64,000 bases of DNA from an uncultured Acidobacteriia bacterium (GCA_903923395.1 CAIXXM010000089.1:62001-126000), one strand, 5' to 3'; shown: positions 4,315 through 61,358, counted from the first letter of the stretch. A program made the numbers and translations. Notes: generated from the letters alone by a model not told the origin.

Positions 4315-4951
4315 GCCCGGGCCCGGAAACTTAGTCCGGTATCAATTTCAAGAGCGCGCCACGCACTGGGTTGTGGCGGCCAACTGCATCTATCTCATCG
4401 CGAGCGGCCTGGCGTTGCGTTCTCCGCATCTGTACTGGCTTTCAACGCTGGCAGGCGGTGCCGCCACCATGCGCTATCTCCATCCGATTCTGGGGTTGGT
4501 CTATTTCCTCGCACTGCTCTGGATGTGGTGGCTCTGGCGCAAAGATCTGAAGATACAACCTTATGACAGCAAATGGATGATGCAGATCGAAGCTTACATT
4601 ACAAACCACGACGAAGATCTACCCGGCATTGCACGCTGGAATCCCGGCCAGAAGATCTTCTACTGGCTTATGCTTTCCGCGGGCTTCGGGCTCGTATTTT
4701 CAGGGCTTCTCTTATGGTTCCCGGAACGGATTCCGTGGTCCTGGCAGAGCTTGAAATTCATCGCGATCGTGACACACGCCAGTTGCGCCTATGCCAGCAT
4801 TGGAGGCCTGCTGATCCATGTGTATATGGGTATCTTCCTGGTCAAAGGAGGTTTTGAGCAAATGATCACCGGTGAAGTTACCAAGCCATGGGCCAAGCAC
4901 CACCACAGGCTCTGGTACGCGCGGCTAACCGGAGGCCGGACGGATGACTAA
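4295..4951 (+). CDS. fdnI/fdoI-like: formate dehydrogenase gamma subunit, cytochrome b556
   Basis: Membrane protein YQFQERATHWVVAAN...HPILGLVYF...WNPGQKIFYWLMLSAGFGLVFSGLLLWFPE; start set at ATG 4295. Confidence 0.92.
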   Translation: MKIRWHKPGPGNLVRYQFQERATHWVVAANCIYLIASGLALRSPHLYWLSTLAGGAATMRYLHPILGLVYFLALLWMWWLWRKDLKIQPYDSKWMMQIEAYITNHDEDLPGIARWNPGQKIFYWLMLSAGFGLVFSGLLLWFPERIPWSWQSLKFIAIVTHASCAYASIGGLLIHVYMGIFLVKGGFEQMITGEVTKPWAKHHHRLWYARLTGGRTDD

Positions 4952-5684
4952 ACAACCCTGGGCGGCTTGGCATGCGCGTGCGTCCGCGCTTTACCGGCAC
5001 CAACCAAATCTCTTATTGGAGAAGCATCTCCGCCTGCTGCAATTTCAGGCCGACCTCGCCGTGCAGGTCCAACCCGGACCCGGAGAGACTCTGTTCCAAA
5101 GGCTGCAATCCGCAAGCTTTGCCACTGTTCTTTGCATAGCGGTGGATCTAGCCAGGAAACTCGGCCTGCAAGCGGAACATTGCGCTGGCCATGACTCACT
5201 GTGGGAGTATCTTTTCAGCGGCGGGCAAACTACCGAGTATCCCCGTGACTTCATTCCGCGTCTTGTTCTGCAAGTTTTCGCGACGGAATCCAGATTCATC
5301 GGACAGCGCACCATGGAGACACAGGCCAGCTGTTGTCCACATTGCGGCTTCCCTGCATTGCTGCTCGCGCTCCGCCCGGAAGGCGACGGCCGCAAGCGTT
5401 TTGCGGTTTGCTCCCTGTGTGCTGCAGAATGGCCGGCAACGCGTATTGATTGCTTCTTCTGCGGTGAACAGCGCCCGGAACAATTACCGCTGTTCAGCTT
5501 CGAACACGTGCAACACATACACGTGCAGTGCTGTAATACTTGCCAGGGATTCCTCAAGGTTGTAGATATCGCGAGCAGCGGCCTCGCGGTCCCCATGGTG
5601 GATGACATCGCGACTCCCGAAGTTACGCTGTGGGCTCTGGATCAGGGCTACAGGACGGTAACGTCGAACTTGCTGGGAATTTAG
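4944..5684 (+). CDS. fdhE: formate dehydrogenase accessory protein FdhE
   Basis: CPHCG, CSLCAAEW and CFFCG CxxC motifs typical of FdhE; overlaps the gamma subunit gene. Confidence 0.88.
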   Translation: MTKQPWAAWHARASALYRHQPNLLLEKHLRLLQFQADLAVQVQPGPGETLFQRLQSASFATVLCIAVDLARKLGLQAEHCAGHDSLWEYLFSGGQTTEYPRDFIPRLVLQVFATESRFIGQRTMETQASCCPHCGFPALLLALRPEGDGRKRFAVCSLCAAEWPATRIDCFFCGEQRPEQLPLFSFEHVQHIHVQCCNTCQGFLKVVDIASSGLAVPMVDDIATPEVTLWALDQGYRTVTSNLLGI

Positions 5685-6945: not shown

Positions 6946-9900
6946 TGCTGCTTCTCCTGCGTGACTTCTCCCCCGGCAGGAAACTCCAACAGAATGGAGG
7001 TTCCCGAACCCGGCTTCGTCGATATCCGCAAATCGGCCTGGATGTGACGGGCCCGTTCCTGAATTCCGGCAAGACCGAAATTCGCGGGGCGCGATAAGGC
7101 TTCCTGCAAGTGGAAACCATTGCCATCATCCTCAACCAGTAGACTTACCTTGCCCGGCAGGAAGGCCAGTGCCAGGCCGATGTGCAACGCGCCGGAATGC
7201 TGCACCGCGTTGCGCAGACCCTCATTCGCTATGCGAACCATATCCTTGGCAACCGCCGGAGGCAACTCCCTGGAACTGCCCGTTTCAGTGAACTCAAATT
7301 GCACCGTGCGCGAGCGTGCCGCGGCTTCCGCACGACCGGCCTCCAGAATCCTGCGGAGGGACGAGGAAAGGTCAATCTTCTCCGTGTTGCGCATGCTGCC
7401 TACCGCGCGCCGGGCTTCCTGTACGGAATCCGTCGCCTGCTGCTCAATATCCGCAAGCAGCACGCGTGAGGCTTCATCCAGCACGGAACGCCGGCCCAGC
7501 GCACGCAGTTGCAGAGTAATGCCGGTGAAGCTTTGCAGCAGCGTATCGTGCAGTTCCCGCGCCAGTGCGGCACGTTCCTCGCTCTTGGCTTTCTCCGCCG
7601 CCTCATTCTGCGCCTCAATCGCGAGTTCCGCCAACCGGATGGCCAGCGTAGCCTGATGCGCGAGTGACTGCGCGAGTTCCACCTGTTCCCGCGGCGGCAC
7701 TTCTGCCGTGCGAACACGGATCTTGAAGGCACCAATCAGCCCCGTCCCCAGAATCAAAGGCACCGTCAACTGCCCGCCAATGCCTTGCGCTGCCATATGA
7801 GCGGCAGCCTCTGGCGAAAGAGAGGAACAGCCGGTCAGCGGATGGAACTCAGGCTTGCCCGGCTGCAGATATTCCGCGAGCCCCGGCTCGGCAACCTCTG
7901 CTTCGAGAGCTGGATTCCCGTTCATAATGGCCTGGAAAAGCTTTTCGTCCCGCACGGAAAGAAGTACAGAGACAGCATCCAGCGTTTCCCGCAGCACCAT
8001 CACAATTCCCTGTAAAAGCAGTGGACCGGAGCGCGCGGCCGCCAGGGAATCCACCGCAGACTTCAGGGCGCGGTTCGCCTTGGCCAACTCCGCGGCACGC
8101 TGCTGCGCAAGCGCTGCCTCCTGTGCCTCATCCGAGAGCATCACCAGCCGCAGGGCGATCGCTGCCTGTTGCGACAGTGCATTCAGCAGCGGCAGATCTT
8201 CCTTCCGCAACGTGCGGCCCCCGGTGAAATGCAGGTGCAGAGTACCCACGGGTTGATCGCCTGCGAACAAGAGAGCAAACACCGCATCTGACGCGTTGAT
8301 GGCTGCCAGCCACTCCATGCCGCCCGGCAGCGCGAATGAGGTCAGCGGAATATCTATTTGCTCGTCCGCCATCGAGACAGCAAAAATTTGGCGCCGCTCC
8401 AGCGCAATGCGGAACGCCGGCGTAATATCCGGACTGAATGGCGCTCCCCAGATCGCGAGCTCGTTTCCCGACATGCCCCAGCGCGGACCCGAAGAATCCT
8501 GATACAGCTCCAATTGCACCTGGTGCGCCTTGCGGTCATAGCGCATCGCGAGGACATTTGTCGCGCCAGTAACCCGCAGAATTTCCGCGAAAACATGGGC
8601 CATGAACTCCCGCATGTCGCTGGTTTCGGAAAGCCGCGCGAGGCTGGAAGTCAGCACCGAGTTCACACTGGCCAGTTCTGTAATCCGGCGCTGGTTCGCC
8701 GCCCCGCGCTCCCGTGAAACAGCCACCTCTTCCAGTTCCCTGGCCATGCGGATCATCTCGAGCGAAAGCGAGATCTGGTTCGAAAGCGTCATCGCCATGG
8801 AACGTTCGCCCGGCGTGAGTGTTCTCTGATCCGGAAAGCCAAGCGCGACACGTCCCAGATGCCGGTTGGCGGCGGAAAGCGGGATGACCGCGAGTGTTTC
8901 TGCTCCCTGCTCTACCAAATGTTCCCGCTCATGGTCCAGCAGCACCTCGGAAGTGGCGACATCCAGCACCAGGATTTCACCCGCAATGAGCCGCTGGTGC
9001 TTCTCCCAGGAAGGCTTATGTTCCGGATTAAAGAAATGCCGCGCATCATGCTGATACCCGGATTGCTCAGGAAGTAACATCCGGCCGCCTGCGTACTCCA
9101 GTTGCAGAGTTACGGAGCCGTCATCGTCGTTGAACTTCCACAAACAGCCGCGGATGGCGCCGAAATACTCCGTTAAGCTCTCCAGCAACACGCCCTGCAG
9201 CGCTTCCAGATCCCGCGCGCGGCCCACCGCATCCAGGGAATTGGTCAATGCGGCATTCGCCTTCGCGCCTTCCGCTGCGCGCCGTTCGGTCTCTGCTTCG
9301 CGCTCACGCGCCACCGCGGCATCTTTAGCCTCTTCGGCCAGCTTTGCGAATTGCACGGCAAGGCCCAGTTGCGTCGCCAGGGATTCCGCCAGAACAATCT
9401 CCGCCTTGGAAAAAGGCCTGTCCTGTAAACGGTAGATGCAGAGGGTGGATGCGCGCAGTCCACCGGTGCCAACGCCGATATTCAATTCCAGTTCCCAGCC
9501 CGCCCCCACCGCAAACGAGTCGAACTCCGGAACATCCGTGCCCTTGACGTGGTCAATCAACGCGGTGCCAGTTGCGGTCGACGGCATACCGAGATAGACG
9601 TCACTCACCGTGAAGCCTTCCGCGAGGCGGCGCACCAGACCATACTTCACCGGATCCAATTGCATGACCTCATCCGGGGAAAGTGTTCTTCCATCCACAT
9701 TCCAATAACGCAGCCAGATGGTACCGGAGGGAGAATTTTCAAACACCGCGCATGAGGTGGCGCTAAACGTTTCCGCCACAATTTTGAGCACCCGCGGGAC
9801 GATGCGGTTGAGATTGCGCTCTTCGCCGAGGGTGTCAATAGTCGCCTGCAAGGCCAGATTGGCATGCGCAAGAGACCGTGCCTGCTCCGCAGCTCTCTCC

Positions 9901-10469
9901 TCCAACCGGCGGCGATGGATGGAAGACCCAATCGCATTGGCGGCAATCGTCATCGCATAGATCTCACCGGAGGAAAATCTGCGGCCTACCACACAATCAT
10001 CGAAGGCGATGCAGCCGCCATAGTTGCCGCCAACAAAGATCGGCACAACACCCATCGACTTCATTCCCGCCAGTTCGAAGGCTTCGCGGAGCGGCGGTCT
10101 CACGTCATCAATCAAATGCCAGATGCTTTTCCCGTTTTTGAGGGGCCGCAGGTAGTCTTCTTCAATGTCAGCGTTGGAAAAGTGGGTGCCAAGAATAGAA
10201 GCCTGCGGCTTGAGATGCGGCGCACACCATTCATACTGCAACTCATGGTGAAAAGCACCGCCGGCCGGTTCCTGCACAATCACCTTGACGCGGTGAACCT
10301 GCGCCGCCCGTCCCACAACTTCCAGAGCGGATAGCACGGCAGCGGGAAATTCGCTGACCGTCAACAGATCACTGAGCGCAGCGGCAACCGCGGCGAGCAA
10401 TTCATTCGATTGCCCCGAGTGTGTCTCACCAGCGATGCTGTGCTCCTGTTCCGGCAATAATCCCCGCAT
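6942..10469 (-). CDS. sensor histidine kinase with about five tandem GAF domains, HisKA_3 and HATPase
   Basis: Five GAF-like blocks separated by coiled coils; ALARELHDTLLQSFTGITLQLRAL (HisKA_3); NEGLRNAVQHSG...VEDDGNGF...FGLAGIQERARHI (HATPase). ATGA overlap with the response regulator. Start placed at MRGLLPEQ; the track extends it to 10754 into the neighbouring MFS gene. Confidence 0.88.
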   Translation of the reverse strand: MRGLLPEQEHSIAGETHSGQSNELLAAVAAALSDLLTVSEFPAAVLSALEVVGRAAQVHRVKVIVQEPAGGAFHHELQYEWCAPHLKPQASILGTHFSNADIEEDYLRPLKNGKSIWHLIDDVRPPLREAFELAGMKSMGVVPIFVGGNYGGCIAFDDCVVGRRFSSGEIYAMTIAANAIGSSIHRRRLEERAAEQARSLAHANLALQATIDTLGEERNLNRIVPRVLKIVAETFSATSCAVFENSPSGTIWLRYWNVDGRTLSPDEVMQLDPVKYGLVRRLAEGFTVSDVYLGMPSTATGTALIDHVKGTDVPEFDSFAVGAGWELELNIGVGTGGLRASTLCIYRLQDRPFSKAEIVLAESLATQLGLAVQFAKLAEEAKDAAVAREREAETERRAAEGAKANAALTNSLDAVGRARDLEALQGVLLESLTEYFGAIRGCLWKFNDDDGSVTLQLEYAGGRMLLPEQSGYQHDARHFFNPEHKPSWEKHQRLIAGEILVLDVATSEVLLDHEREHLVEQGAETLAVIPLSAANRHLGRVALGFPDQRTLTPGERSMAMTLSNQISLSLEMIRMARELEEVAVSRERGAANQRRITELASVNSVLTSSLARLSETSDMREFMAHVFAEILRVTGATNVLAMRYDRKAHQVQLELYQDSSGPRWGMSGNELAIWGAPFSPDITPAFRIALERRQIFAVSMADEQIDIPLTSFALPGGMEWLAAINASDAVFALLFAGDQPVGTLHLHFTGGRTLRKEDLPLLNALSQQAAIALRLVMLSDEAQEAALAQQRAAELAKANRALKSAVDSLAAARSGPLLLQGIVMVLRETLDAVSVLLSVRDEKLFQAIMNGNPALEAEVAEPGLAEYLQPGKPEFHPLTGCSSLSPEAAAHMAAQGIGGQLTVPLILGTGLIGAFKIRVRTAEVPPREQVELAQSLAHQATLAIRLAELAIEAQNEAAEKAKSEERAALARELHDTLLQSFTGITLQLRALGRRSVLDEASRVLLADIEQQATDSVQEARRAVGSMRNTEKIDLSSSLRRILEAGRAEAAARSRTVQFEFTETGSSRELPPAVAKDMVRIANEGLRNAVQHSGALHIGLALAFLPGKVSLLVEDDGNGFHLQEALSRPANFGLAGIQERARHIQADLRISTKPGSGTSILLEFPAGGEVTQEKQQ

Positions 10470-10560
10470 GGCAGCTTCGTATCCCAGTCCCTGTGCACGG
10501 CACGTTACTGGAGATCCTAATCGTACAAAATTTTGAAGTATCCATGCTTTGGAACCCATT

Positions 10561-12141
10561 TCAATGCATATGGACTTCACCGCCGGCAGCGGGGCGGCGC
10601 ATGAAGAATGCGAGGGGCACCACCACGGCGCAGATGACAGAAAAGACCCAGGCAACATCGATGTAAGCCAGGGCATTCGACTGTCCCTGCAGCGTGAGAT
10701 ACAAACGCCCATAGGCCTGCTGGGTCGCATCTGCAAGTGCGACGCCCTTGGCATTTAACATCCGGGCCAGGGTATCCGCGCTGCTGCGGAAGCCCGGATC
10801 GAAGAGCGTCATTTTTGCGCGGAGAGAGTCCTGATGATGCTGTGCGCGCTGCGCCAGCAGAGTGGTGACCAGAGAAATCCCCACACTCCCGCCGATGTTG
10901 CGGGCCAGATTCGTCATGCCGGAGACGTTGTTGTTCTTTTCCGGGGGAATGCCGACATAGGACATCGTACTGATCGGAACAAACAGGAAAGGCAACCCCA
11001 GCGAGTAACAGGCGCGCAGGAGAGAGGCCGTCTTGAAGTCCATCTGCAGATCGAGACCGGTAGTGACATACAAGCCGACGGAGCTAACCAGAAACCCGAA
11101 CGCAATCATGTAACGCGGGTCGACACGGGATACCATGCGCCCGACCATCGGCATACAGGCAAGAACCACAAACCCGCCAAATGAAAGGGTCATGCCGGCC
11201 TGCTGGGCTGTGTATCCCATCAGCAACTGCAATAGCTGCGGCAACAAGACAGTAGTTCCGAACAGTGACATGCCGAGCGCGAACATCATCACACACGCGA
11301 TGGCGAAGTTACGGTTTTTGAGCAGCTTCAGATCGATGACCGGGTGATCCTCAAAGTACTCCCACACCACCGCGCCCACCAGCGAAACCACAGTAACCAC
11401 CGTGAATGTCTTAATGAATGGAGAACTGAACCAGTCTTCCCGCTCGCCTTTATCCAGCACCACCTGCAAGCATCCGAGTCCCAGGGCAAGCAACCCGAGA
11501 CCGATGTAATCTACTGGATATTTCTTCTTGCGTTCCTCTTCGAGGAACGGCGGATCTTCCACCAGACGGGAGGAAAGCACGAGCGAGAGGATGGCGACGG
11601 GGACATTGATGAAGAAGATCCAGCGCCAGTCAAAGTTATCTGTGATGTAACCGCCGAGAGTGGGTCCTATGGCCGGCGCAAGTACCACGGCGAGGCCGTA
11701 AACCGCAAACGCCATCCCGCGCTTGGCCGGCTCAAAAGTATCTGCCAGAATCGCTTGTTCACTCGGCGCAAGTCCCCCGCCACCCAAGCCCTGCAGGATG
11801 CGGAAGAAGATCAGCCACGGCAAGCTCGGGGCAAGTCCGCAAAGCAGAGAACTAATCCCGAAAACAGCCACGCAAGACATATAGAACCGCTTGCGTCCAA
11901 GCCGCGTCGCCAGCCAGGCACTAATGGGTAGAATGATTGCATTCGAAACCAGATACGACGTCAGTACCCAGGTGCTTTCATCCTGCCCCGCAGATAGCGA
12001 ACCCGCAATATGCGGCAGTGCAACGTTCGCGATGCTGGTATCCAGCACCTCCATGAAAGTCGCCAGAGTGACTGTCAGCGCAATCGCCCATGGATTAAAA
12101 CGGGGCCGCCAGGGAGCGGCAACAGGTGTCATTGCACCCAT
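10561..12141 (-). CDS. emrB-like: DHA2-family MFS multidrug transporter (EmrB-type)
   Basis: MEVLDTSIANVALPHIAGSL, TSYLVSNAIILPISAWLATRLGRKR, GLGGGGLAPSEQAI. Confidence 0.93.
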   Translation of the reverse strand: MGAMTPVAAPWRPRFNPWAIALTVTLATFMEVLDTSIANVALPHIAGSLSAGQDESTWVLTSYLVSNAIILPISAWLATRLGRKRFYMSCVAVFGISSLLCGLAPSLPWLIFFRILQGLGGGGLAPSEQAILADTFEPAKRGMAFAVYGLAVVLAPAIGPTLGGYITDNFDWRWIFFINVPVAILSLVLSSRLVEDPPFLEEERKKKYPVDYIGLGLLALGLGCLQVVLDKGEREDWFSSPFIKTFTVVTVVSLVGAVVWEYFEDHPVIDLKLLKNRNFAIACVMMFALGMSLFGTTVLLPQLLQLLMGYTAQQAGMTLSFGGFVVLACMPMVGRMVSRVDPRYMIAFGFLVSSVGLYVTTGLDLQMDFKTASLLRACYSLGLPFLFVPISTMSYVGIPPEKNNNVSGMTNLARNIGGSVGISLVTTLLAQRAQHHQDSLRAKMTLFDPGFRSSADTLARMLNAKGVALADATQQAYGRLYLTLQGQSNALAYIDVAWVFSVICAVVVPLAFFMRRPAAGGEVHMH

Positions 12142-23755: not shown

Positions 23756-23786
23756 ATAGGTTCAACCCCGCTACTCTGGCTTGAGG

Positions 23787-25178
23787 ATGCAAAACACAGC
23801 ACAGCAACAAGCCCGCAGCGCCACGGCAGGAGCCATCTTTCCGCTGCTCTGCCTCGCCGGCGCCATCGCCGCAACACCGTTCGTGGACCGCCTCACCAGC
23901 GTCCTGCTGCTGCTCAGCACGCTGCTCTTCGCCGTCATCTGCCGCTACTCGCAGCACTACCTCGCCGGCGACCCCGGCCAGGCCCGCTTCTACTTCTGGC
24001 TCTGCTGCACAGGCAGCTGCGTCTTCGCCCTGATTCTTGCCCGGAATCTGCTCTTCTTCGCTTGCGCCTGGCTCGGCACGAGCCTCAGCCTGCACCAGTT
24101 GCTGCAGTTCTACCCCCACCGCCCCGGCGCTCTGCTCGCCGCACGCAAGAAGTTCTTGATCAGCCGCCTGGGCGATTCCGCCCTCGCCGGAGCACTCTTC
24201 CTCACCTACCGCACCTTCGGCACCTGGGATTTCTCCGCGCTGTTTGCCGCCGCCGATCGCCTGCGCGACTCGCACCAAATCCCCCTGGACGTCAGCGCCA
24301 CCGCCTGCCTTCTGGTCTTCGCGGCGATGCTCAAATCCGCACAATTTCCGTTTCACAGCTGGCTGCCGGACACCATGGAAACCCCCACGCCGGTCTCTGC
24401 ACTGATGCACGCCGGCATTATCAACGCCGGGGGAATTCTGGTGATCCGCCTGAGCCCCATCGTTACGCTCTCTCCCGCGGCGATGACGGCTCTTGCGGCA
24501 GTGGGCGCCTTCACAGCGCTCTTCGGCTCCGTGGTGGCTCTCACGCAGGCCAGCGTGAAACGGTGCCTCGCCTTCTCCACCGTGGCGCAAATGGGCTTCA
24601 TGATGCTCGAATGCGGACTCGGCGCCTTCCACCTCGCGCTGCTGCACCTGCTTGCGCACTCGCTGTATAAGGCTTATTCGTTCCTCTCCTCCGGGAGCGT
24701 GGTCTCCACCGAACCGCAACGCAACCAGACGGCCGCCGGAACGCTCGCCCTCATTGCCGGATTGCTGCCCGCGGGCCTCGCCTGGACCGCTGGCTTGCAC
24801 CAATTCGATCAGCCCGTCCTCAGCGGCATCTTCTTCCTCGCCCTCGCGCAAATGCTCTGGACTCTCAAACCCGGTCTCCAACTCCTCAGTGGACTCGCCG
24901 CCGGAGGTTTCCTCACCGCCGTCTACTTCGGCCTCGAAAAAGCAGCCGCCCAGGTAGTGCAACCCGCCACCGTACCCGCGAACACAGTTCTCTCCGCAGC
25001 GATCCTGCTGCTCTTCCTGCTGACCGCACTGTTCCAAAGCCAACTGCCCCGGCTCCGCCAAAGCAGCGCAGCGACCAGCTTCTATATCCACGCCCGCAAT
25101 GGGTTCTACTTCAACACTCTGGCCAACCGCCTAACCATGGCACTCTGGCCGGCGCAAAACACAGAGAGGACCTTCTAA
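23787..25178 (+). CDS. dabB: DabB: NuoL/MrpA-like proton-conducting membrane subunit
   Basis: Proton_antipo_M-type sequence (LKSAQFPFHSWLPDTMETPTPVSALMHAGIINAGGILVIRLSP, KRCLAFSTVAQMGFMM...HLLAHSLYKAYSFLSSG) next to DabA. Confidence 0.88.
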   Translation: MQNTAQQQARSATAGAIFPLLCLAGAIAATPFVDRLTSVLLLLSTLLFAVICRYSQHYLAGDPGQARFYFWLCCTGSCVFALILARNLLFFACAWLGTSLSLHQLLQFYPHRPGALLAARKKFLISRLGDSALAGALFLTYRTFGTWDFSALFAAADRLRDSHQIPLDVSATACLLVFAAMLKSAQFPFHSWLPDTMETPTPVSALMHAGIINAGGILVIRLSPIVTLSPAAMTALAAVGAFTALFGSVVALTQASVKRCLAFSTVAQMGFMMLECGLGAFHLALLHLLAHSLYKAYSFLSSGSVVSTEPQRNQTAAGTLALIAGLLPAGLAWTAGLHQFDQPVLSGIFFLALAQMLWTLKPGLQLLSGLAAGGFLTAVYFGLEKAAAQVVQPATVPANTVLSAAILLLFLLTALFQSQLPRLRQSSAATSFYIHARNGFYFNTLANRLTMALWPAQNTERTF

Positions 25179-27415
25179 TGCCCGTCGAGCTACTTGTGAC
25201 CTCAAAAGAAACCATCACCAACGCGATCCAGACGGCCTGCAAGCGGGTTCCGCCCCTGTGGCCCCTGCAGAATTTCGTCGCCGTAAATCCCTTCCTCGGG
25301 CTCACCGGCCGCACGTTTGCCGATGCCGCACGCCTGATCGACCGCGTTGGCCACGGCCCCATGCTCATGCCCGCCGGCTACTATGCGGAAAAGTGCAGCC
25401 AGCAGGCACTGCGCCCGGATCAGATCGCGATCGCCTGCCAGGACTACACCAGCAGCAACGCGCCGGCCGACCCCGAGGAGTGGCTGAAAGCCGAACTCGC
25501 GCGCAGCAGCGACACGACCCGCCTCCTCACCGTCGCGGACTGGCTTGATCACACCAAATCCACATCCTGGGCCATTTTCATCACGGACGAGATCTCGAAA
25601 TGGTGCTCGTCTTACTTCGACCGCGCCCTGAGCTACTGGACCATGCCCGGCCGGGAAGCTACGCTGTACCAGGCTTGGAAACAGGCTGCTTCGATTGACA
25701 GGAACCCCGAAGTCTTCGGTCTGCCCGACTTCCGGACCCTCGTCCGCGCCCTGCCCGACAACGAAGAAGCCGCCATCCACGAACTCCTGGCCCTGCTCGG
25801 CACCCGCGAGGAAGAACTCGAAGACTTCCTGCACCGCCAGTTGATGAGTATCTTCGGCTGGAGCGCCTGGTGCGCCTTCCGCGAGCGTGAAGGAGCGGAA
25901 AACCTCACACGGCAACTACTCGCCATCCGCCTGGCCTACGATGCCGCTCTGCTTACCCTTGCCGAAGGTTTCGACGCAGGCCACGGCGAGACTGCGCCCG
26001 CAACCTTCACCACTGCGAAATACTTGGCACAACTGGCCGCCGAGGGAACATTCCGGGCCAACCTGGCTTCGAAGCTGGCGCACGCGCCTGCAAGCACCTC
26101 GAAGGCCACACGCAAGCGCCTGCAGGCTGTCTTCTGTATCGACGTCCGCTCAGAAGCCTACCGGCGCGCCCTCGAAGCGCAGGCCCCCGGCATAGAAACC
26201 ATCGGCTTCGCGGGCTTCTTCGGCATGGCCATCGACTTTCAGGATTCCGCCCGCTGCCCCGTTCTGCTGGCGCCCCGCTTCACCGTCAACAGCACTGGAA
26301 CGCCCGCGTCGAAGTGGCTCTCCAAGGCGTGGGGCCAGTTGCGCAACTCTGCCTCGGCCTGCTTCCCCGCCGTAGAAACCGGCGGACTCTGGTACGGCGT
26401 CTCCATCGCCAAACGCCTGCTCGGTCTCACAAAGAAGGAAGCCGCAACCCAGCCGCTGCAATGGCAAATCGGGCTGGAAACCCGCGTCCAACTTGTGGCG
26501 GATGCCCTGCGCAACATGAGTCTCGACCCCGCGCAGCTGGCGTCTATCGTCCTCATCTGCGGCCACGGCAGCAGCACGGAAAACAACCCCTACGGCTCCA
26601 GTCTCGATTGCGGTGCCTGTGGCGGACACAAGGGCGATGTCAACGCCCGCTTCGCTGCCGCGCTCATGAATGATCCGGAAGTTCGCGCAGAACTTCAGCG
26701 CCGGGACATCTGCATCCCGGCGGAGACGGTCTTCGTCGCCGGTATGCACATCACCACGACCAACCAGGTGGTGCTCTACGACACCGAACGCCTCACTCCA
26801 GCTCAGTTGCAGGAATTGCAGGGCTGGCTCCAGAAGGCCTCGGCCTCTCTCGATGACGGCGGCACGCAGCGCAGCCGGGACTGGTCTGAAGTCCGTCCCG
26901 AATGGGGCTTGGCTGGCAACGCCGCCTTCATCGCGGCCCCGCGCAGCAGAACCCGCAATCTCGAACTCGGCGGCCGCGCCTTCCTGCATGACTACGATCC
27001 TGCCGCCGACCACGACAACTCGGTGCTGACTCTGATCCTCACCGCTCCGGTCGTCGTCGCCAGTTGGATCAACCTGCAGTACTTCGGCTCCACGGTGAAT
27101 AACGAACTCTTCGGCAGCGGCAACAAAGTGCTGCATAACGTCGTGGGCACCTTCGGCATTTGGGAAGGCAACGCCGGCGACCTGCGGACAGGACTCCCGC
27201 TGCAATCCCTGCACGACGGTACCAATTGGGTCCACGAACCGCTCCGCCTTCAGGTCTTCGTGGAAGCCACACGTGACCGTATCGACGCCGTGCTGGAGGC
27301 ACATCCGCAAGTGAGAGAACTGGTGGAGAATGAGTGGATTTCGCTCATCTCGATGGAAGGCGATGTCTTCCACGAACGTAAGCGCAGCGGGTGGCGCTGG
27401 CTGCCGACAGCTTGA
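25178..27415 (+). CDS. dabA: DabA: DUF2309/UPF0753 zinc protein, putative inorganic carbon transport subunit
   Basis: PPLWPLQNFVAVNPFLGLTGRTF, QAVFCIDVRSEAYRRALE, CGHGSSTENNPYGSSLDCGACGGHKGDVNARFAA; ATGA-type overlap with dabB. Confidence 0.92.
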   Translation: MPVELLVTSKETITNAIQTACKRVPPLWPLQNFVAVNPFLGLTGRTFADAARLIDRVGHGPMLMPAGYYAEKCSQQALRPDQIAIACQDYTSSNAPADPEEWLKAELARSSDTTRLLTVADWLDHTKSTSWAIFITDEISKWCSSYFDRALSYWTMPGREATLYQAWKQAASIDRNPEVFGLPDFRTLVRALPDNEEAAIHELLALLGTREEELEDFLHRQLMSIFGWSAWCAFREREGAENLTRQLLAIRLAYDAALLTLAEGFDAGHGETAPATFTTAKYLAQLAAEGTFRANLASKLAHAPASTSKATRKRLQAVFCIDVRSEAYRRALEAQAPGIETIGFAGFFGMAIDFQDSARCPVLLAPRFTVNSTGTPASKWLSKAWGQLRNSASACFPAVETGGLWYGVSIAKRLLGLTKKEAATQPLQWQIGLETRVQLVADALRNMSLDPAQLASIVLICGHGSSTENNPYGSSLDCGACGGHKGDVNARFAAALMNDPEVRAELQRRDICIPAETVFVAGMHITTTNQVVLYDTERLTPAQLQELQGWLQKASASLDDGGTQRSRDWSEVRPEWGLAGNAAFIAAPRSRTRNLELGGRAFLHDYDPAADHDNSVLTLILTAPVVVASWINLQYFGSTVNNELFGSGNKVLHNVVGTFGIWEGNAGDLRTGLPLQSLHDGTNWVHEPLRLQVFVEATRDRIDAVLEAHPQVRELVENEWISLISMEGDVFHERKRSGWRWLPTA

Positions 27416-52891: not shown

Positions 52892-54325
52892 CTATTTCAG
52901 GCTTTCGATGTAGGCAACCAGCGCAGCCAGGTCATCAGCAGGCAGGTCAGAGGGCATCATGCCTCCATCCTGCATGTTCGCGGCCGGCTTCTTCAAAAGC
53001 GCTGTCATCCGTTCGGCATTGTATTTCGAACTGATGCCGATGAGCTTCGGACAGACACCGCCGACACCCTTGTCGCCGTGGCAACCGCTGCAGCCCTGGG
53101 TTTCGAAAAGCTTCGCGCCTTTGGCAAGAACGGGGTCCACCGGCGCGGCGGGAGCAGCACCGCTGACTTCCGGCTCAAAGGGAGCCTTCATGAAGTCTTC
53201 GGAGGCCTTTTCCTGCGCGATGATCTGCTTCGCGTAGACGGGGTTGCTGTGATCGTTGTTGTAACTTACCGCACCCAAGCCGAAGAGGGCGAGGAAGATA
53301 CAAACATAAGTTCCCACTGCGATAGGACGCTTCCAAGGCCGGCGCTCCATGCTGCGGTCGAGAAATGGCAGGCTGGCGAAGGCGAAGGCGACGATACCGG
53401 GAATCACAACGACTCCGAGGAACGAAAGTGCGCCGGGCCAATACTTCAGCCACTGGAAGATAGGAATGTAATACCATTCCGGCCGCGGCAGGTAACTGGT
53501 ATCTGACGGGTTTGCCTTCGGGCCGAGTTCAAAAGGCATGGTCTTCGCGATAAAGGCCATGACCGCGATGATGCCGAGGGAGACAATCGCATCCATCACC
53601 ACCTGGCGGGGATAAAACATTTCGGCAGGCAGTTTCGGTTCGACCGGATGTTCATTGATGGGGCCCGCGGAACCGGCCTTGCGGAAGAACAGCACGTGAG
53701 CTGCGATCACACCGAAGATACCGGCAGGAATCACCATGACGTGTGCCACGAAGAAGCGCGACAGGGTAAGTGTTCCCATATCGACGCCGCCGCGCATCAG
53801 CGACTTGATCCAGGCCCCGACAAACGGCACTTCGCCGGCGATATTCGTGCCGACTGCGGTAGCGAAGTAAGCCTTCTGGTCCCAGGGCAGCAGATAGCCG
53901 GTGAAGGCCATACAGAGCACCAGCGCGAAGAGTACGCAACCGGAGAGCCACAGCACTTCGCGTTTGCCTTTATATGCGCCGTAGAGAAAGGTTTGGGTGA
54001 TGTGGAGTAACAACAGAATCACCATGGCGCTCGAACCATAGGCGTGCACGCTGCGGATGAATCCACCTGCCGCAACCTGCTTGGTGATGTAAGCGACAGT
54101 GGTGTGGGCGTGGTCCGCCGAAGGGACATAGTAGAGCGACAGGAAGATCCCCGTCACCACCTGCGAGAGAAAGATAAAGATCAGGGCCGACCCGAAGACG
54201 TAGGCGAAGCGCGCGCCGCCGGGGATGGGCTCATTCAGGGTTTCGTTGATGAGGGCATCAATGCCGGTCCGCTCATCGAGCCAACCGTAGATGCCTGTGT
54301 GTTTGGTCTTGGCATGTTCGCTCAT
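52892..54325 (-). CDS. petB-like: cytochrome b of a bc-type complex fused to a C-terminal cytochrome c domain
   Basis: RFAYVFGSALIFIFLSQVVTGIFLSLYYVPS, FTGYLLPWDQKAYFATAVGTNI, FFVAHVMVIP; C-terminal GAKLFETQGCSGCHGDKGVGG. Confidence 0.92.
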   Translation of the reverse strand: MSEHAKTKHTGIYGWLDERTGIDALINETLNEPIPGGARFAYVFGSALIFIFLSQVVTGIFLSLYYVPSADHAHTTVAYITKQVAAGGFIRSVHAYGSSAMVILLLLHITQTFLYGAYKGKREVLWLSGCVLFALVLCMAFTGYLLPWDQKAYFATAVGTNIAGEVPFVGAWIKSLMRGGVDMGTLTLSRFFVAHVMVIPAGIFGVIAAHVLFFRKAGSAGPINEHPVEPKLPAEMFYPRQVVMDAIVSLGIIAVMAFIAKTMPFELGPKANPSDTSYLPRPEWYYIPIFQWLKYWPGALSFLGVVVIPGIVAFAFASLPFLDRSMERRPWKRPIAVGTYVCIFLALFGLGAVSYNNDHSNPVYAKQIIAQEKASEDFMKAPFEPEVSGAAPAAPVDPVLAKGAKLFETQGCSGCHGDKGVGGVCPKLIGISSKYNAERMTALLKKPAANMQDGGMMPSDLPADDLAALVAYIESLK

Positions 54326-54349
54326 GGCTGTATCTTCTTTCGTTCGGGC

Positions 54350-54877
54350 TCAGCCGATGACTTCTTTTTCCGGGACCAATTGTTTGAAGTACTTATAGTG
54401 CACCGCAAGGCGTCCATCTTTCACCTGGGCTTCCAGGGTGTCCATGCCGCGCGGCGCGGGTCCGCCGGTGCATTTGCCATCCGGTGAAAAGGCGGCGGAA
54501 TGGCAGGGGCAAACGAAGCTGTTCTTGGCACCGTTCCACTGCACGGAGCAGCCGAGGTGGGGACAGATAGCGGTGAGCACCTGGAGCTTGCCGGACGTGT
54601 CTTTGGTGATGTACACGACCTTCTCCTGCACGGTCTTGCGCCAGCCATCGAGTTGCTCCACAATCACCGGGCGCTGCACGGGCGTGGTGAGGGATTCGAA
54701 GTCAGAAATAGGCCCGATGTCGGACCACTTTTCGGCCTCTCCCTTGGCGCTCATCGGATAAAGCAAAAACTTCACCAATGGCACGCCCATCAATGCTCCG
54801 GTGATGGTGCCGCCGATCGCCAGCAACCACGCCGTAAAGCCTCTCCGGCTCGTCTCGCTTCCTGTTGTTTCGCTCAT
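54350..54877 (-). CDS. petA-like: Rieske [2Fe-2S] protein
   Basis: N-terminal TM RRGFTAWLLAIGGTITGALMG; CPHLGCSVQW and CPCHSAAFSPDGKCTGGPAPRGMD. Confidence 0.94.
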   Translation of the reverse strand: MSETTGSETSRRGFTAWLLAIGGTITGALMGVPLVKFLLYPMSAKGEAEKWSDIGPISDFESLTTPVQRPVIVEQLDGWRKTVQEKVVYITKDTSGKLQVLTAICPHLGCSVQWNGAKNSFVCPCHSAAFSPDGKCTGGPAPRGMDTLEAQVKDGRLAVHYKYFKQLVPEKEVIG

Positions 54878-54909
54878 GGCGCTTCCGTCCCCTTCTCTGC
54901 TCTCTGCGG

Positions 54910-55242
54910 CTATTGCTTGATGCTGCGGATGTAACCCACAATGCTGGTGATTGTGGCTGCATCCAGCGACTTTTCAAACGCCGGCATCGGGGGCTTGCCC
55001 TTGGCGATGATGGCAGTCAGTTCCGCGTCGGTCTGTTTCTGGACGTCTGCCGAGCGGAGGTCGCGAAGCTTGAATTTCTTGCCCATGGGGGTTTGGCCCG
55101 CGCCATCCTGGCCGTGGCACATGCCGCACTTGGCCTTGTAGGTGTCCTCGCCGGCGGCAAACACTGCGGCGCAGAGCAACGACCCGAGCGCAAGCGCCCG
55201 GATTCCAGTCCTCATTGCGTTTCTCATATCCGTATTCAGCAT
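54910..55242 (-). CDS. class I monoheme cytochrome c, exported
   Basis: Signal peptide; YKAKCGMCHGQDGAGQTPMGKKFKLRDL...MPAFEKSLDAATITSIVGYIRS. Confidence 0.9.
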   Translation of the reverse strand: MLNTDMRNAMRTGIRALALGSLLCAAVFAAGEDTYKAKCGMCHGQDGAGQTPMGKKFKLRDLRSADVQKQTDAELTAIIAKGKPPMPAFEKSLDAATITSIVGYIRSIKQ

Positions 55243-55243
55243 T

Positions 55244-56350
55244 CTACTTCCTTCCCTTTCTTGTGTTGAGGTAAACGATTAAGTCAGCCATTTCCGAGCC
55301 TTCAAACCTCGGCCATTTGATCTTTTTCTCAAGCATTACCGCGAGCATCTGCGGGCCATGATGCCAAAGGGCAGAGACCATCGTAATGCCGGAAATGTTA
55401 CCGCCGCCGTTGTTGAGATCGGGGGCACCGTTCGCCGCATTGTCATGGCAGGTGGAGCACTGGCGGTTGACGAAGACTTTGCGTCCGCGTCCAGCATCCC
55501 CCCCGCCCTCAAAGAACTTCTCCGCCCAAACGTAACTGATCAGTTCGCGCATTTCGCCGGGGTTCAGGCGGGTGGTCGCTTCGGGCATCTTGAGACCGTG
55601 TCCCCAGAGGTGCGCGGCGACGTCAGTCAGGGTTTCCCCGCTAACGTGTTTGCCAACGGAGGCCTGCGTGGTGTGGCACTTCGCGCAGCCCTTTTCGCGG
55701 AATAACTGGTCGCCATTCCGTCCGGAGGTGGTTTGGAACGAACTGGCGAAGTTTTTCACTTGGGAGAGATTGCGCAGGTAGACGAGCAAATCCGTAAGGT
55801 CCTGACCGCTGACTTCGGGCGGTTTGATTCCCTGGTTGGCAAGTTCGCCGCGCATGTCTGCCGCGTGGTTCCACATCGCTGTGGTCAATGCAATCGGGTC
55901 GCCAATTGAGGCCCATTCGGAGACGGGTTTCGCCAGGGAATTTGGAGTTGCCGCGATGGCGTGGCACTTGGTGCATGACTTCTCCGTGAAGACCCGCTTG
56001 CCGCGGCCCGCATCTCCTGGTTTTTCAAAGAAACGTGCGGAATAGAAGTAGGCGAAGAGGTCTGCCGCGGCTTGGTCATCCATGTTGAAGCCGGCCACGT
56101 TGCGGGAGCGCATGGCACCCCACATTTCCGGCGCGTGATTCCACATGGTGCTGGCCAGCGTGGCCGGAGAGAAGTTGCGGTCCATGTGGCGGCCGAGGTC
56201 TGGGGCAATTCGCCCACCCCTGCCATTGACGCTGTGGCATTCGACGCAATGCTCTGTTTCAAAGAGCTTGGCACCACGCGCGGAATCGGCCTCCAGCACG
56301 GCGGCACCGGCGGGCATGCAGAACAAGAAGACCAGACAGAAACGCTTCAT
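55244..56350 (-). CDS. exported cytochrome c with four heme motifs in four tandem domains
   Basis: GAKLFETEHCVECH, GKRVFTEKSCTKCH, GDQLFREKGCAKCH, GRKVFVNRQCSTCH. Confidence 0.9.
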   Translation of the reverse strand: MKRFCLVFLFCMPAGAAVLEADSARGAKLFETEHCVECHSVNGRGGRIAPDLGRHMDRNFSPATLASTMWNHAPEMWGAMRSRNVAGFNMDDQAAADLFAYFYSARFFEKPGDAGRGKRVFTEKSCTKCHAIAATPNSLAKPVSEWASIGDPIALTTAMWNHAADMRGELANQGIKPPEVSGQDLTDLLVYLRNLSQVKNFASSFQTTSGRNGDQLFREKGCAKCHTTQASVGKHVSGETLTDVAAHLWGHGLKMPEATTRLNPGEMRELISYVWAEKFFEGGGDAGRGRKVFVNRQCSTCHDNAANGAPDLNNGGGNISGITMVSALWHHGPQMLAVMLEKKIKWPRFEGSEMADLIVYLNTRKGRK

Positions 56351-58308
56351 CGCGTATACCTCACTCCAGTGGTGAACAGGCTGCTTCGAAAATCTTCATA
56401 TTGATAGTAGGGTTCGTGGAAGCCGTAGTAGCGCCATTCCGAGAACCATGCGAGTTTCCGGGTGACAGGCAGACTGAGCTTCACCACAGGCTGATAGAAG
56501 CCGGTGGGGCGGCTGCCGGATGTGGTGACAAACGCGCCGCCGAGGGACAGCGCCGGTTTCAGTCCGAAGAGCATGGCTGGTTTCGCTTCGAGGAACCCAT
56601 TGACCGTGTGGACATTCTCACGGTAGCGGTCTGAGAGCTGGACGCCGGTGTAAGGTTCCAGATAAGGCACGTCAGACCGGGTTGTGGCACGTGTATAACT
56701 TCCCTGCAGGCTCCAGCGCTTCTTTTCAGGCGCATAGATGAGGGAGGCACTCAGCTGCTTCGATAGAAATGAGTACCGGCCGGAAGTACCAGCCTGTTGC
56801 GAGGGCGGGTTCTCATTGTTGAGGATACTGGCATCGATAGCAGCTTCCAGACCCGGGCGGAAGTGATACGCGGAACGTATGCGAACCTTCTGGTATTGGT
56901 AGAGGCTGGTGCGGAAGTAAGCGCCATTACTGGCACCGGCTTCCACGTCGCCATGCAAAGAGAGCTTGGCATAGGGCTTATAAGTGATCCCGGCAAGAGC
57001 CACGTTGCGGTGCAGGGTGACGTGGTCCATATAAGCCAGCCCGGCAGCGGGAAGAGTAAGGTCATTCGCATCTGCCCAGACTCTGCGATAGCCGCCGCGC
57101 AGAGCTAACTTCGCCGTGGCGTCAAACAGCACATCGGTCTGCAACTGCGAGTAGTTGGAGGCGAGCGAAGAAGTTAGCAGAGAGGCCGTAGTGACGGGGT
57201 TCTGTTGTGCGGCCGCATTTGAGGCATCATGGAGACGGTCCGTCAGCCAGGATTCGAGAATCTTGACTTTGCGGAAGGGCCGCACTTCAGCACCCGCGCT
57301 GCCGGTTTGATGCGGAAGCTTGGCACCGCTTTGCAGGGCATAACGCTGCGCGGAGTAGAACAGGATCTGACTGGGAATCACGAAACTGCCCGCGTCATTC
57401 ATCTGGTAGTTGACGGTGTTCTTTGGCTGGCTGAAGAAGAACTCTCCGCGAAGGTCCAGCCAGGAAGTTACACGGGCGGAAGCCAGTGCCTTGGAATAGA
57501 TACTAGTGCCACGGACCCCATAGGCTTCCGCGAAACTGCTCAGATAGAGTTGCTGGCCAAAATAAGGAACTGGATTGTTACCGGTATTCGGCTTCCCCGT
57601 GCCCTGGTATTCGGTCTGGTCATCCTTATACTGGGAGCCGCCCTGCTCCAGCGTCAGGTGAAGACGTCGGGCATCAATTCGGACACCGGCGCGTGCGTAA
57701 AGCTGGGAGTTACGAACAACTCCAGGGAGCGCGTATTCATTATTGCCGGTAACAAAGGTGTTAATGGAGTTGCCGGTTTCTGAGGAACGCTCGAACTCAC
57801 TATAAGGTGTGATCCAACTCCATGTAATGAACTCCAGTCGGACGTCCGTCAGGTGTTCATGAACATCTGAGGATTGCTCATTGAGCAGCACGCCGCGCTG
57901 CAGCAGAGGGTCCGCGAAAGATGGCAGGTTGCTGAAGTAGGCGATATCCCGGTAGTTAGTCTCCAGTTCGTAGAGCTTTGCTTTGCGGACCCGTGCGTGT
58001 ACGGTGGCATAAGGTTCACCACCCCAGCCGGAAGCCTGCAGCTCAAAGCGGTCAAAGAGCCGGTGTTTGGGGTCGTTATAACTGAGATCCGCACCAATGA
58101 GTTTGGGACCTTCGCCTAAGTTGATGAGGCTGCGGTAGACATTCCAGTTGCCGCCATTGGCTGTCTGCCAGCGGTAGCCGAGATCCACCCAGCCGGTTAG
58201 CGATTGTTCTGCGGTTGGCACTGGACTGGGCGCCTTGGCGACACCGCCGTCGGTCTGCCCGTGCAACAGCGCGCCGCCCATGAATAAAGTGCTGAGGAGT
58301 TTCTTCAT
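56347..58308 (-). CDS. mtrB-like: MtrB/PioB-like outer membrane beta-barrel of a porin-cytochrome conduit
   Basis: Signal peptide, alternating beta-strand pattern over 653 aa, C-terminal FRSSLFTTGVRYTR; between cytochrome genes with ATGA overlaps on both sides. Confidence 0.75.
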   Translation of the reverse strand: MKKLLSTLFMGGALLHGQTDGGVAKAPSPVPTAEQSLTGWVDLGYRWQTANGGNWNVYRSLINLGEGPKLIGADLSYNDPKHRLFDRFELQASGWGGEPYATVHARVRKAKLYELETNYRDIAYFSNLPSFADPLLQRGVLLNEQSSDVHEHLTDVRLEFITWSWITPYSEFERSSETGNSINTFVTGNNEYALPGVVRNSQLYARAGVRIDARRLHLTLEQGGSQYKDDQTEYQGTGKPNTGNNPVPYFGQQLYLSSFAEAYGVRGTSIYSKALASARVTSWLDLRGEFFFSQPKNTVNYQMNDAGSFVIPSQILFYSAQRYALQSGAKLPHQTGSAGAEVRPFRKVKILESWLTDRLHDASNAAAQQNPVTTASLLTSSLASNYSQLQTDVLFDATAKLALRGGYRRVWADANDLTLPAAGLAYMDHVTLHRNVALAGITYKPYAKLSLHGDVEAGASNGAYFRTSLYQYQKVRIRSAYHFRPGLEAAIDASILNNENPPSQQAGTSGRYSFLSKQLSASLIYAPEKKRWSLQGSYTRATTRSDVPYLEPYTGVQLSDRYRENVHTVNGFLEAKPAMLFGLKPALSLGGAFVTTSGSRPTGFYQPVVKLSLPVTRKLAWFSEWRYYGFHEPYYQYEDFRSSLFTTGVRYTR

Positions 58309-59252
58309 CGCAACAGATTCCTGTCCACGTGACTGCCGTGGATCTTCTGGTGGCAGGTTGTGCAGTTCTGATACCGCGCGGAACGCAGGTCATGGAAGGC
58401 AGGCGGAATAACGCCCGTTACCGCACCCGGCTTCGCCGCAGCGAGGGTACCCTGCAGATTCGCATGACAACTGAGGCATACCAGCCGGACTTCCTGCTGT
58501 GTCAGCATCTTCGGATTCGCGGAACCATGCGGCTCATGGCAGGAGTTACAGCCTTCAAAGCGCACTGGCGCATGCTCAAAGGTGAAGGGTCCACGCTTGT
58601 TTCCGTGACAACTGAAGCAGGGTGGCTCATTCGATGTTGACGTTCTTTGCAGCGGGCTCTTGATGCTGCCGTGGGGATTGTGGCAATCGACGCAGGTCAT
58701 TGCGTTCTGCGTCACCTTATGCGCATGAGGCTTTTCGAATTGTGCCTTGACGGTGAGGTGGCAACTGGAACAGAGCGTGTTGACAGCCTCTGCCTTGCGG
58801 GCCACTAAACCATACGGTCCATTGGCGTGGACTTTGTGGCAGGAGACACAGGCGATCTGGTTCTTTACGTGCGCGCTTTCCACAGGGCCGTCATGCCCGG
58901 GCTTGCTCACGTGACAAGTCACACAGAGCTTGTTACTTTCCGAAGCTACCAGTTTGGCGGGATTGCGGATTTCCTTGGCCTCCGCGGTGCCGGCGTGGTT
59001 GCTTCCGGGGCCGTGACAGGATTCGCAGCCTTTTCCGTCCCAGCCGCGCCTCTTATCGGTCTCAACAATCTGGTGGGGATTTTTCTTGAATGCCGTGCCG
59101 ATATCTTCGTGGCAGGTCATACAGGTTTCTGTACCCACGAAGGTCGCCCTGGCGGGCGGTGCTTCGGGCGGGGTGGAAGCAGCAGCGGCAGCGGGCTTTT
59201 CCTGGCCCGCTGCCGCTATTGTTACTAACAGAAGTGCTATAAGTCGCAGCAA
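58305..59252 (-). CDS. mtrA-like: MtrA/DmsE-family decaheme c-type cytochrome
   Basis: Ten CxxCH motifs counted: CMTCH, CESCH, CVTCH, CVSCH, CSSCH, CVDCH, CFSCH, CNSCH, CLSCH, CTTCH. Confidence 0.93.
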   Translation of the reverse strand: MLRLIALLLVTIAAAGQEKPAAAAASTPPEAPPARATFVGTETCMTCHEDIGTAFKKNPHQIVETDKRRGWDGKGCESCHGPGSNHAGTAEAKEIRNPAKLVASESNKLCVTCHVSKPGHDGPVESAHVKNQIACVSCHKVHANGPYGLVARKAEAVNTLCSSCHLTVKAQFEKPHAHKVTQNAMTCVDCHNPHGSIKSPLQRTSTSNEPPCFSCHGNKRGPFTFEHAPVRFEGCNSCHEPHGSANPKMLTQQEVRLVCLSCHANLQGTLAAAKPGAVTGVIPPAFHDLRSARYQNCTTCHQKIHGSHVDRNLLR

Positions 59253-59261
59253 TGGAAACCT

Positions 59262-61358
59262 CTAATACTGCGCATGCACTTGACTGACCGAATAGGCCTG
59301 GCCGCTGCCGTGGCAAACCACGCAGCTCTCTCCCAGGATTGTTGTGTTGACCAGAGCGTGAGATGCGGTCTGGACACTCGGGTGGCAACCTGTGCAAGCG
59401 CCGGTGATGGGCTGCACAGAGGGGATTGGCCCTTGGGGATCAAGCACGGGAGCCAAACCGAAGGGCAGGTTCTGTTCACTGCCTTTTACGTGGCAGATGG
59501 AGCAGTTCCGCAGGTCGCCGCCATTCCCTTGCGGGCTGAAGGCGGGGTAACGGGTTCCGGAAAAGTCATTGTGGCTTCCGCCGTAACCGACCACCACATA
59601 GGGTTTGCCGCCCTGCGCCACAACGTTGGGGCCGGAGTGGATGCGGTGCACCAGCAGGTTGAAGTTGATTCCCTGCGGAGGCAGCGCCTTGTCGGCGGCA
59701 ACCACAGCGCTGGAGCGGACGCTGACGTCAGAGTTGGACGGGTTATGGCACATCACGCAGTATTCTGTGTTGTTGCGCAAGCCGCCGTGGAGTTGCAGGG
59801 AGACGTGGCAGCCGTTGCAATTATCAATCGCAACCACCTGGCGCCGGGCCTGCACTGGAGTGTTATCCACACTGAAGTAGATCACCTTGTTGCCGCCACC
59901 GTAAGTGACGCTCTGCTGTTTGGTCGTGCCGGGCAGCAGGAGTTCCGTGCGGCGGCCTTCAATGCCGATGGTGTAAGAACCAGTGGCGTTCGCAGGAACG
60001 GCATGGGTAAAGGTGTAAGTACACGTACCGGAGTTATCGCACTTGGAATTGGCAAGTGCATTCTCGGTGACATAGCCGGGGGTTGTCACGTCGCTGCCGA
60101 AGCTGGTGTAACCATAGCCACTGGTCGGACCCGCCATGGTCAGAGACAGTGAGCCGAGTTTGGAGAATGGCACGCCTGCCTTGGAGTTATCCGTAACGGT
60201 GAAAGTAACCGTCGGCTTGCTGCCGGCGACGCCGTTGTCCACCTTGACCATATTGAAGAACAAGCCTTCGAGCATGCTGGAATCTGTGGGCACCACGTGC
60301 GCACCCTTGATAGAGGCATCGAATTCCAGTTCGCCCTGCGGGACGTGGCAAGTGGCGCACTGTTTGTCGTCAGGTTGCGGGCCACCGGGGTGGTTGACGC
60401 CCGTGGCGAGGTTGACGTCGTCATGGCAGGAACCGCAGACAGCAGCGGATGGCTTGGTCAGGTAATTCGTCTTCTGCACTGCGGCCGCCTTCTGGTTGTG
60501 GCAGGTTTCGCAGCGGCGGGGGTCCGCAGGGAAGACTACGGTGGAGAAATCATTGGAGCCACCGAAAGTATACGGCTTGCCGGCAACAACACTGGGAAGC
60601 TGGGAACCCATGTGGATCTTGTGGATCATCACCTTGAAATCAGGATTGCTGCCCGTGGTGGCATCGCCGGTTTGGGGCTGGTGACAAAGCACGCACATGG
60701 CAACGCCGCGGCGGGAACCGCCATGGTGGGAGAGCTGGTCATGGCAGCCGTTGCAACTCGTGTCAGAGACAACGTCACGCGTCGTCACCACCGGAGAGCC
60801 GTTGGGGACGAAGTTGAACGTGGTGCTGGCGTAGTTGATCGTCAAACCATAGGGAGTAAGATCGCGGGACCCATAGATACCGATCGTATGCGTTACGGTC
60901 GGGTCAAAGTTCGCGGGTGCGGTGGTCTTGAACACGTACTTGTAAGTGCCATCCGCCTGGGCAGTCAGGGTACCGCCGGAATCCGCGCCCGCCTGGGTGA
61001 CAGTGCCAAGCGCTCCGGTGGAGGTTCTGGAAGTGTAGGACGTGTACTGCGCCTGCCCTTGCGGGATGTAGGCAGCGATAAAGCTGGTTTTGACGATGCC
61101 GGGAGTCGTGGTGCCGGTATTGTCGAGGTTGAGCCCGTTGGGGTCCGTGATGGAGAAAGTTGCTGTGATGGTGCCATTGGCGGCTACCTGGGCACTCAAT
61201 ACCTTGAATGCCAGACCCGGACGCACGAAGGCGACTACTTCAGGACTGAGGTAAGCGGCCTTGTCATGCGGCCCGGGAACTCTCTTGGGCGACCCGGCGA
61301 GCGCCACGGTTGCAAAAAGTGCGATTGCTCCGATGATGTATCTTTTTATCCGCGTCAT
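59262..61358 (-). CDS. omcA/mtrC-like: OmcA/MtrC-family decaheme c-type cytochrome
   Basis: Ten CxxCH motifs counted: CNGCH, CVLCH, CETCH, CGSCH, CATCH, CNGCH, CVMCH, CSICH, CTGCH, CVVCH; beta-sandwich-like regions between two heme clusters. Confidence 0.92.
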   Translation of the reverse strand: MTRIKRYIIGAIALFATVALAGSPKRVPGPHDKAAYLSPEVVAFVRPGLAFKVLSAQVAANGTITATFSITDPNGLNLDNTGTTTPGIVKTSFIAAYIPQGQAQYTSYTSRTSTGALGTVTQAGADSGGTLTAQADGTYKYVFKTTAPANFDPTVTHTIGIYGSRDLTPYGLTINYASTTFNFVPNGSPVVTTRDVVSDTSCNGCHDQLSHHGGSRRGVAMCVLCHQPQTGDATTGSNPDFKVMIHKIHMGSQLPSVVAGKPYTFGGSNDFSTVVFPADPRRCETCHNQKAAAVQKTNYLTKPSAAVCGSCHDDVNLATGVNHPGGPQPDDKQCATCHVPQGELEFDASIKGAHVVPTDSSMLEGLFFNMVKVDNGVAGSKPTVTFTVTDNSKAGVPFSKLGSLSLTMAGPTSGYGYTSFGSDVTTPGYVTENALANSKCDNSGTCTYTFTHAVPANATGSYTIGIEGRRTELLLPGTTKQQSVTYGGGNKVIYFSVDNTPVQARRQVVAIDNCNGCHVSLQLHGGLRNNTEYCVMCHNPSNSDVSVRSSAVVAADKALPPQGINFNLLVHRIHSGPNVVAQGGKPYVVVGYGGSHNDFSGTRYPAFSPQGNGGDLRNCSICHVKGSEQNLPFGLAPVLDPQGPIPSVQPITGACTGCHPSVQTASHALVNTTILGESCVVCHGSGQAYSVSQVHAQY

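Follow-up and report, generated by a model that had tools for sequence, protein, structure and literature searches.

Which enzyme passes electrons from the quinone pool to an MtrCAB-type extracellular electron transfer conduit in the Acidobacteria? The question is raised by a gene cluster at positions 52892 to 61358 of a 64,000-nucleotide stretch of DNA from an uncultured Acidobacteriia bacterium (GCA_903923395.1, CAIXXM010000089.1:62001-126000), referred to here, at its full length, as the window. Group 5 MtrCAB systems have been defined in Acidobacteriia/Bryobacterales, with a tetraheme cytochrome gene directly downstream of mtrB and, as the same authors state, no putative inner-membrane quinone oxidoreductase encoded near mtrCAB (Baker et al. 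2022, PMC8805035), and no CymA homologue is listed for Acidobacteria by Zhong and Shi 2018 (PMC6295460). In the window, genes for a Rieske protein, a cytochrome b and cytochromes c (hereafter the bc module) directly follow mtrCAB and the tetraheme gene. In the literature searched, which does not cover subscription papers and preprints, no account was found of bc genes linked with mtrAB or mtrCAB. Our analysis indicates that the window cluster is a hybrid of two kinds of gene cluster and that, on balance, it probably encodes an inner-membrane-to-surface electron pathway which is fed by the bc module and runs outward.

Conduit and bc module in one gene run

The seven genes of the cluster, and one gene that follows them, are the following.

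59262..61358, minus strand: OmcA/MtrC-family decaheme cytochrome (MtrC), 698 amino acids (aa), 10 CXXCH, TIGR03507
58305..59252, minus strand: MtrA (DmsE-family) decaheme cytochrome, 315 aa, TTG start, TIGR03508
56347..58308, minus strand: MtrB-like outer-membrane beta barrel, 653 aa, predicted from an AlphaFold2 model compared with the PDB
55244..56350, minus strand: c4, tetraheme, class I cytochrome c domains (PF00034/PF13442), 4 CXXCH
54910..55242, minus strand: c1, monoheme cytochrome c, 110 aa, PF13442
54350..54877, minus strand: Rieske iron-sulfur protein, PF00355, boxes CPHLGC and CPCHSAAF
52892..54325, minus strand: cytochrome b fused to a monoheme cytochrome c domain, PF00033, PF13631, PF00032, PF00034
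51815..52831, minus strand: LysR-type regulator, PF00126, PF03466, membership of the unit uncertain

All seven open reading frames, read on the minus strand from 61358 to 52892, are intact and free of internal stops. In cluster order they carry 10, 10, 0, 4, 1, 0 and 1 CXXCH motifs, are spaced by +9, -4, -4, +1, +32 and +24 nucleotides (nt), and have purine-rich stretches ahead of their starts. The co-directional, tightly packed genes and heme motifs of the original prediction, which was made from the sequence alone, were all recovered at the same positions, with matching motif counts and spacing. This spacing is consistent with a single operon, in which the genes may be co-transcribed; promoter and terminator scans of the cluster gave signals not usefully above those of shuffled sequences. 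The LysR-type gene lies 60 nt downstream of the cytochrome b-c gene on the same strand, and was dropped as a candidate for a conserved regulator of the cluster because no equivalent is kept at the loci of relatives.

The window MtrC scores 504.7 bits (E 4e-151) against TIGR03507, for which the NCBIfam cut-off is 209.3, and its nearest solved structures by phmmer are MtrF, MtrC and OmcA. Its N terminus is signal-like, and no lipobox was found in it or in the MtrC of the relatives looked at. MtrA scores 244 bits (E 1e-72) against TIGR03508, with a cut-off of 192.2, and matches chain A of the Mtr complex in the PDB (6r2q_A, E 2e-37; the chain is wrongly named in the structure file). By these family scores the two proteins can be assigned to the MtrC and MtrA families of an MtrCAB conduit. 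The barrel gene has no match among Pfam or NCBIfam models, and a PDB sequence search with a 48-sequence MtrB profile also returned none; its identity was settled instead by a fold search. An AlphaFold2 model built from an alignment of 48 homologues (predicted local distance difference test score, pLDDT, 84.9) has 28 strands, and its best PDB match is 6r2q_B, MtrB of the Mtr complex, with a template modelling (TM) score of 0.68 and E 3.6e-15, while TonB-type receptors trail at TM scores of at most 0.48. The predicted product of the third gene is an outer-membrane barrel of the MtrB fold. The c4 gene stands directly downstream of mtrB, with a 4-nt overlap, and matches the Group 5 tetraheme cytochrome in position and heme count, so that the order mtrC-mtrA-mtrB-c4 fits the known description of that group. 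Both the named relatives and Group 5 (PMC8805035) agree with the earlier suggestion that the organism is an acidobacterium.

The bc module contains a cytochrome b with about seven hydrophobic segments or helices. Its heme-ligand histidines, at positions 94/108 and 195/210, have 13 and 14 residues in between, respectively, and a PEWY motif is located at residues 282-285. A 14-residue spacing is typical of b6-type proteins; at the position of the b6 heme ci cysteine the alignment places a valine. The ligand histidines and PEWY are invariant across the cytochrome b of 12 relatives. The Rieske protein has one N-terminal helix and the cluster-binding boxes CPHLGC and CPCHSAAF. Loss of the Ser and Tyr of the CPCHGSxY box lowers the Rieske potential, and a lowered potential would suit menaquinol. 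These residues were tried and rejected as a marker of the mtr link, being absent from most mtr-linked Rieske proteins but also from many unlinked ones. The residues expected of a Rieske/cytochrome b complex are present, and a functional quinol site is plausible because the heme b ligands and PEWY are conserved.

Candidate quinol enzymes beside acidobacterial conduits

The surroundings of mtrCAB were surveyed by an MtrC search of 399 genomes of the class, with 80 stretches examined and 52 loci counted as having mtrC, mtrA and mtrB, the window included. A tetraheme gene is present in 31 of these 52. Near mtrCAB, 22 loci encode a NapC/NirT-type (PF03264) five-heme membrane protein of about 450-490 aa, and bc genes occur at one locus, that of the window. 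Contrary to the published statement on Group 5, many acidobacterial mtrCAB loci appear, by this domain assignment, to have a candidate quinol dehydrogenase. The pentaheme protein adjoins mtrCAB at loci L033, L035, L037, L046, L058, L065, L077, L080, L083, L085 and others; at L041 a gene between mtrC and mtrA (8317-10950) encodes a NapC-type pentaheme protein of 877 aa that has additional triheme-like domains and 17 CXXCH in all. The genome of the window, a 98.5% complete draft in 169 contigs, gave no PF03264 match, although the same model does find the proteins of relatives, and no match to the relatives' pentaheme protein used as query. The earlier observation that no CymA-like enzyme is seen nearby is borne out at the locus and extends to the whole genome, in which none is detectable.

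A second survey started from the window cytochrome b, which was searched in the class, the family, the phylum and GTDB contigs, and the neighbourhoods were read; a score of at least 500 bits defined membership of the bc clade. Among the matches listed there are 51 distinct loci, and at 21 of them the bc genes stand beside mtrA or mtrB. The usual order is mtrA-mtrB-c1-Rieske-cytb, all on the same strand, and the families concerned carry the codes f1, f6, f10 and f15. Most of these mtrAB-bc clusters have no mtrC. Their MtrA passes the DmsE-family cut-off in all four cases tested, the one compared with the PDB matches 6r2q_A, and the one barrel tested aligns with the window-type MtrB profile over 575 columns at 99.3% probability. 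On a Gemmatimonadota contig (L214, Gemmatimonadetes bin-2303) the order is Rieske-cytb-c1-MtrA-MtrB with a monoheme c1; the barrel there matches TIGR03509 with E 5e-53, below the curated cut-off, and has no match to the acidobacterial MtrB profile. L295 was rejected as an mtr-linked locus, since the cytochrome b adjoins an MtrA-like gene but the 651-aa neighbour has no barrel homology. The adjacency of bc and mtr genes is unlikely to be accidental, and the neighbourhood check by which it might have proved unique has gone in favour of the original prediction.

Other arrangements were seen in passing. In Chloroflexus DR5_57_13 (L212) the neighbours of Rieske-cytb are an MtrA-like protein with nine hemes and a NapC-like one with seven; in Chloroflexi CoA_1_bin.38 (L240) the neighbour is a six-heme protein similar to MtrC. 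At L161, L170, L171 and L172 a cytochrome b of the same clade is part of a longer fusion of about 880-910 aa that contains four CXXCH; encoded ahead of it are a Rieske protein and another protein, of about 440-500 aa, with a single heme. In Deltaproteobacteria RIFCSPHIGHO2_01_FULL_43_49 (L207), genes for 13-, 10- and 19-heme proteins diverge from Rieske-cytb-c.

The two halves of the window cluster have different relatives. In the MtrA tree the window falls inside a set of 14 mtrCAB-type MtrA (Shimodaira-Hasegawa-like approximate likelihood ratio test, SH-aLRT, 99), near members of its own genus, grouped with other acidobacterial mtrCAB and apart from the MtrA of mtrAB-bc loci. In the cytochrome b tree its companions are seven family members (SH-aLRT 99), of which three belong to mtrAB-bc clusters. 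Identities follow the same division: mtrC and mtrA share 57-64% identity with mtrCAB loci in the genus and the family, and c1, Rieske and cytochrome b are 55-69% identical to the mtrAB-bc loci of the family, the MtrA of which is only 31-39% identical to that of the window. The window c1 is closest to the c1 of mtrAB-bc clusters (55-66%; L253, L254, L257). This bc is carried by only 8 of 237 genomes of the family, and the other listed genus members are without it. Judged from trees and identities, the cluster is a hybrid, in which the genus's own mtrCAB-c4 would have been joined by a c1-Rieske-cytb module like those of acidobacterial mtrAB-bc clusters. Almost no flank synteny with other genus members was found in the stretches compared. 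The claim of an MtrCAB conduit and a bc complex in one cluster stands in that both lie in one gene run, but it needs amending, as the exact set is a hybrid of two older clusters and mtrCAB-c4 was already known.

Proposed pathway and its rivals

In the pathway that we favour, the bc module would take the role held in many relatives by the NapC/NirT-type pentaheme protein. It would oxidise menaquinol at the Qo site with a Q-cycle, and electrons would pass from the fused heme c to c1 and c4, then to MtrA inside the MtrB barrel, to MtrC and to an acceptor outside the cell. The genome also encodes an alternative complex III (ACIII)-caa3 cluster (an NrfD protein, a large molybdopterin/iron-sulfur protein, a pentaheme protein, COX1, and COX2 with cytochrome c), a heme-copper oxidase besides caa3, and, at a contig end, a second Rieske-cytochrome b pair. 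Because of ACIII-caa3 and the second bc, general respiration would not seem to need the bc module of the window, which looks dedicated. Several points weigh against the proposed pathway. At 30 of the 51 distinct loci among the matches listed, the bc clade is not beside mtr genes, and the module therefore serves other chains too; the exact mtrCAB-c4-c1-Rieske-cytb set is found in one draft genome only, that of the window; a route via soluble carriers could become mixed with that to the caa3 oxidase; and bc complexes require acceptors whose potential is fairly high.

The main rival, which we judge unlikely, is inward flow, in which extracellular Fe(II) or another donor would be oxidised at MtrC/MtrA and the electrons passed to periplasmic cytochromes c and caa3, with the bc complex running backwards and reducing quinone, a scheme put forward for Pio and for Acidithiobacillus iron oxidation. 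Mtr-type conduits are considered reversible (PMC6295460), most mtrAB-bc clusters resemble Pio and Mto (PMC10654088) in having no mtrC, and two heme-copper oxidases are encoded in the genome, one of them carrying a cytochrome c domain. Genes for a DabA/DabB-type inorganic-carbon transporter, located at 23781-27415 on the plus strand of the window, also fit this direction. No RuBisCO was found in the genome, however, so there is no obvious need for reverse electron flow for carbon fixation by that route, and the window contains a formate dehydrogenase-N operon, which would feed quinone; together these two observations tilt against inward flow, and the presence of MtrC also counts on that side. 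The formate dehydrogenase-N type operon (323-5684, plus strand) encodes catalytic, iron-sulfur and cytochrome b (about 4337-4873) subunits and FdhE. The catalytic subunit has an in-frame TGA at codon 192, in an ARTUHG context, which is likely selenocysteine.

Distinctly less probable is that an ordinary bc complex of general respiration has landed beside mtrCAB-c4 with no dedicated electronic link. The many loci without mtr neighbours and the single occurrence of the exact combination would agree with this, but the same bc clade stands beside mtrAB at the 21 distinct loci listed, in at least four of the coded families, ACIII and another bc are already present in the genome, and only 1 nt separates c4 and c1. 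A misassembly that fuses two genomes at the c4/c1 join, for which the differing nearest relatives of the two halves and the 169-contig draft might speak, is highly improbable given the operon-like spacing on one strand, the purine-rich ribosome-binding stretch at the join, GC content (overall and at third codon positions, GC3) that is even over both halves, the join and the flanks, a contig of 169 kb, and nearest bc relatives that are only about 70% identical to the window.

Known systems and implications

The window shares with Group 5 MtrCAB (PMC8805035) the class and the order mtrC-mtrA-mtrB followed by a tetraheme gene, and differs in having a bc complex in the slot where that group was reported to lack a nearby quinone oxidoreductase. 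A further comparison is with pentaheme-linked loci of the same genus or family (for example L077, L085 and L033), which have the same mtrCAB-c4 core and a membrane-anchored NapC/NirT pentaheme protein where the window has Rieske/cytochrome b. The Shewanella system, MtrCAB with CymA, likewise has an MtrB barrel together with two decaheme cytochromes, MtrC and MtrA, but its quinol enzyme is a NapC/NirT tetraheme protein, as against a bc complex plus the extra c4 and c1, and its MtrC is a lipoprotein, whereas that of the window has no lipobox. In the Geobacter extHIJKLMNOPQS cluster (PMC5877670) a porin, multiheme cytochromes, a Rieske protein (ExtO) and a cytochrome b (ExtP) are also found together; as described there, however, neither the porin nor the cytochromes belong to the MtrA/MtrC families, and ExtP, a short cytochrome b of 23 kDa, has no cytochrome c fused to it. 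PioAB/MtoAB (PMC10654088) resemble the window in their MtrA/MtrB-type conduit with periplasmic carriers, and bc1 has a part in some iron-oxidation routes that have been proposed, but the pio and mto operons described in that source have neither bc genes nor MtrC, both of which the window has.

The acidobacterial mtrCAB, left without a candidate quinone enzyme by the published survey, now has two: the NapC/NirT pentaheme protein in many genomes, and bc in the window and beside mtrAB elsewhere. With a confidence that stops just short of even, we propose that in Acidobacteria and some Gemmatimonadota the quinol enzyme feeding MtrAB/MtrCAB is a dedicated bc complex, so that, unlike in CymA-fed Mtr, energy is conserved at quinol oxidation, and that NapC-type and bc-type modules have been swapped at the same conduit. 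If so, energy would be conserved at the quinol step of a bc-fed Mtr conduit, and the bc feed would favour higher-potential acceptors, such as the Fe(III) or Mn(IV) of acidic soil. The cluster suggests an unstudied, energy-saving coupling of respiration to extracellular minerals. Acidobacteria are common in soil, and the recurrent mtrAB-bc cluster may therefore matter for iron cycling.

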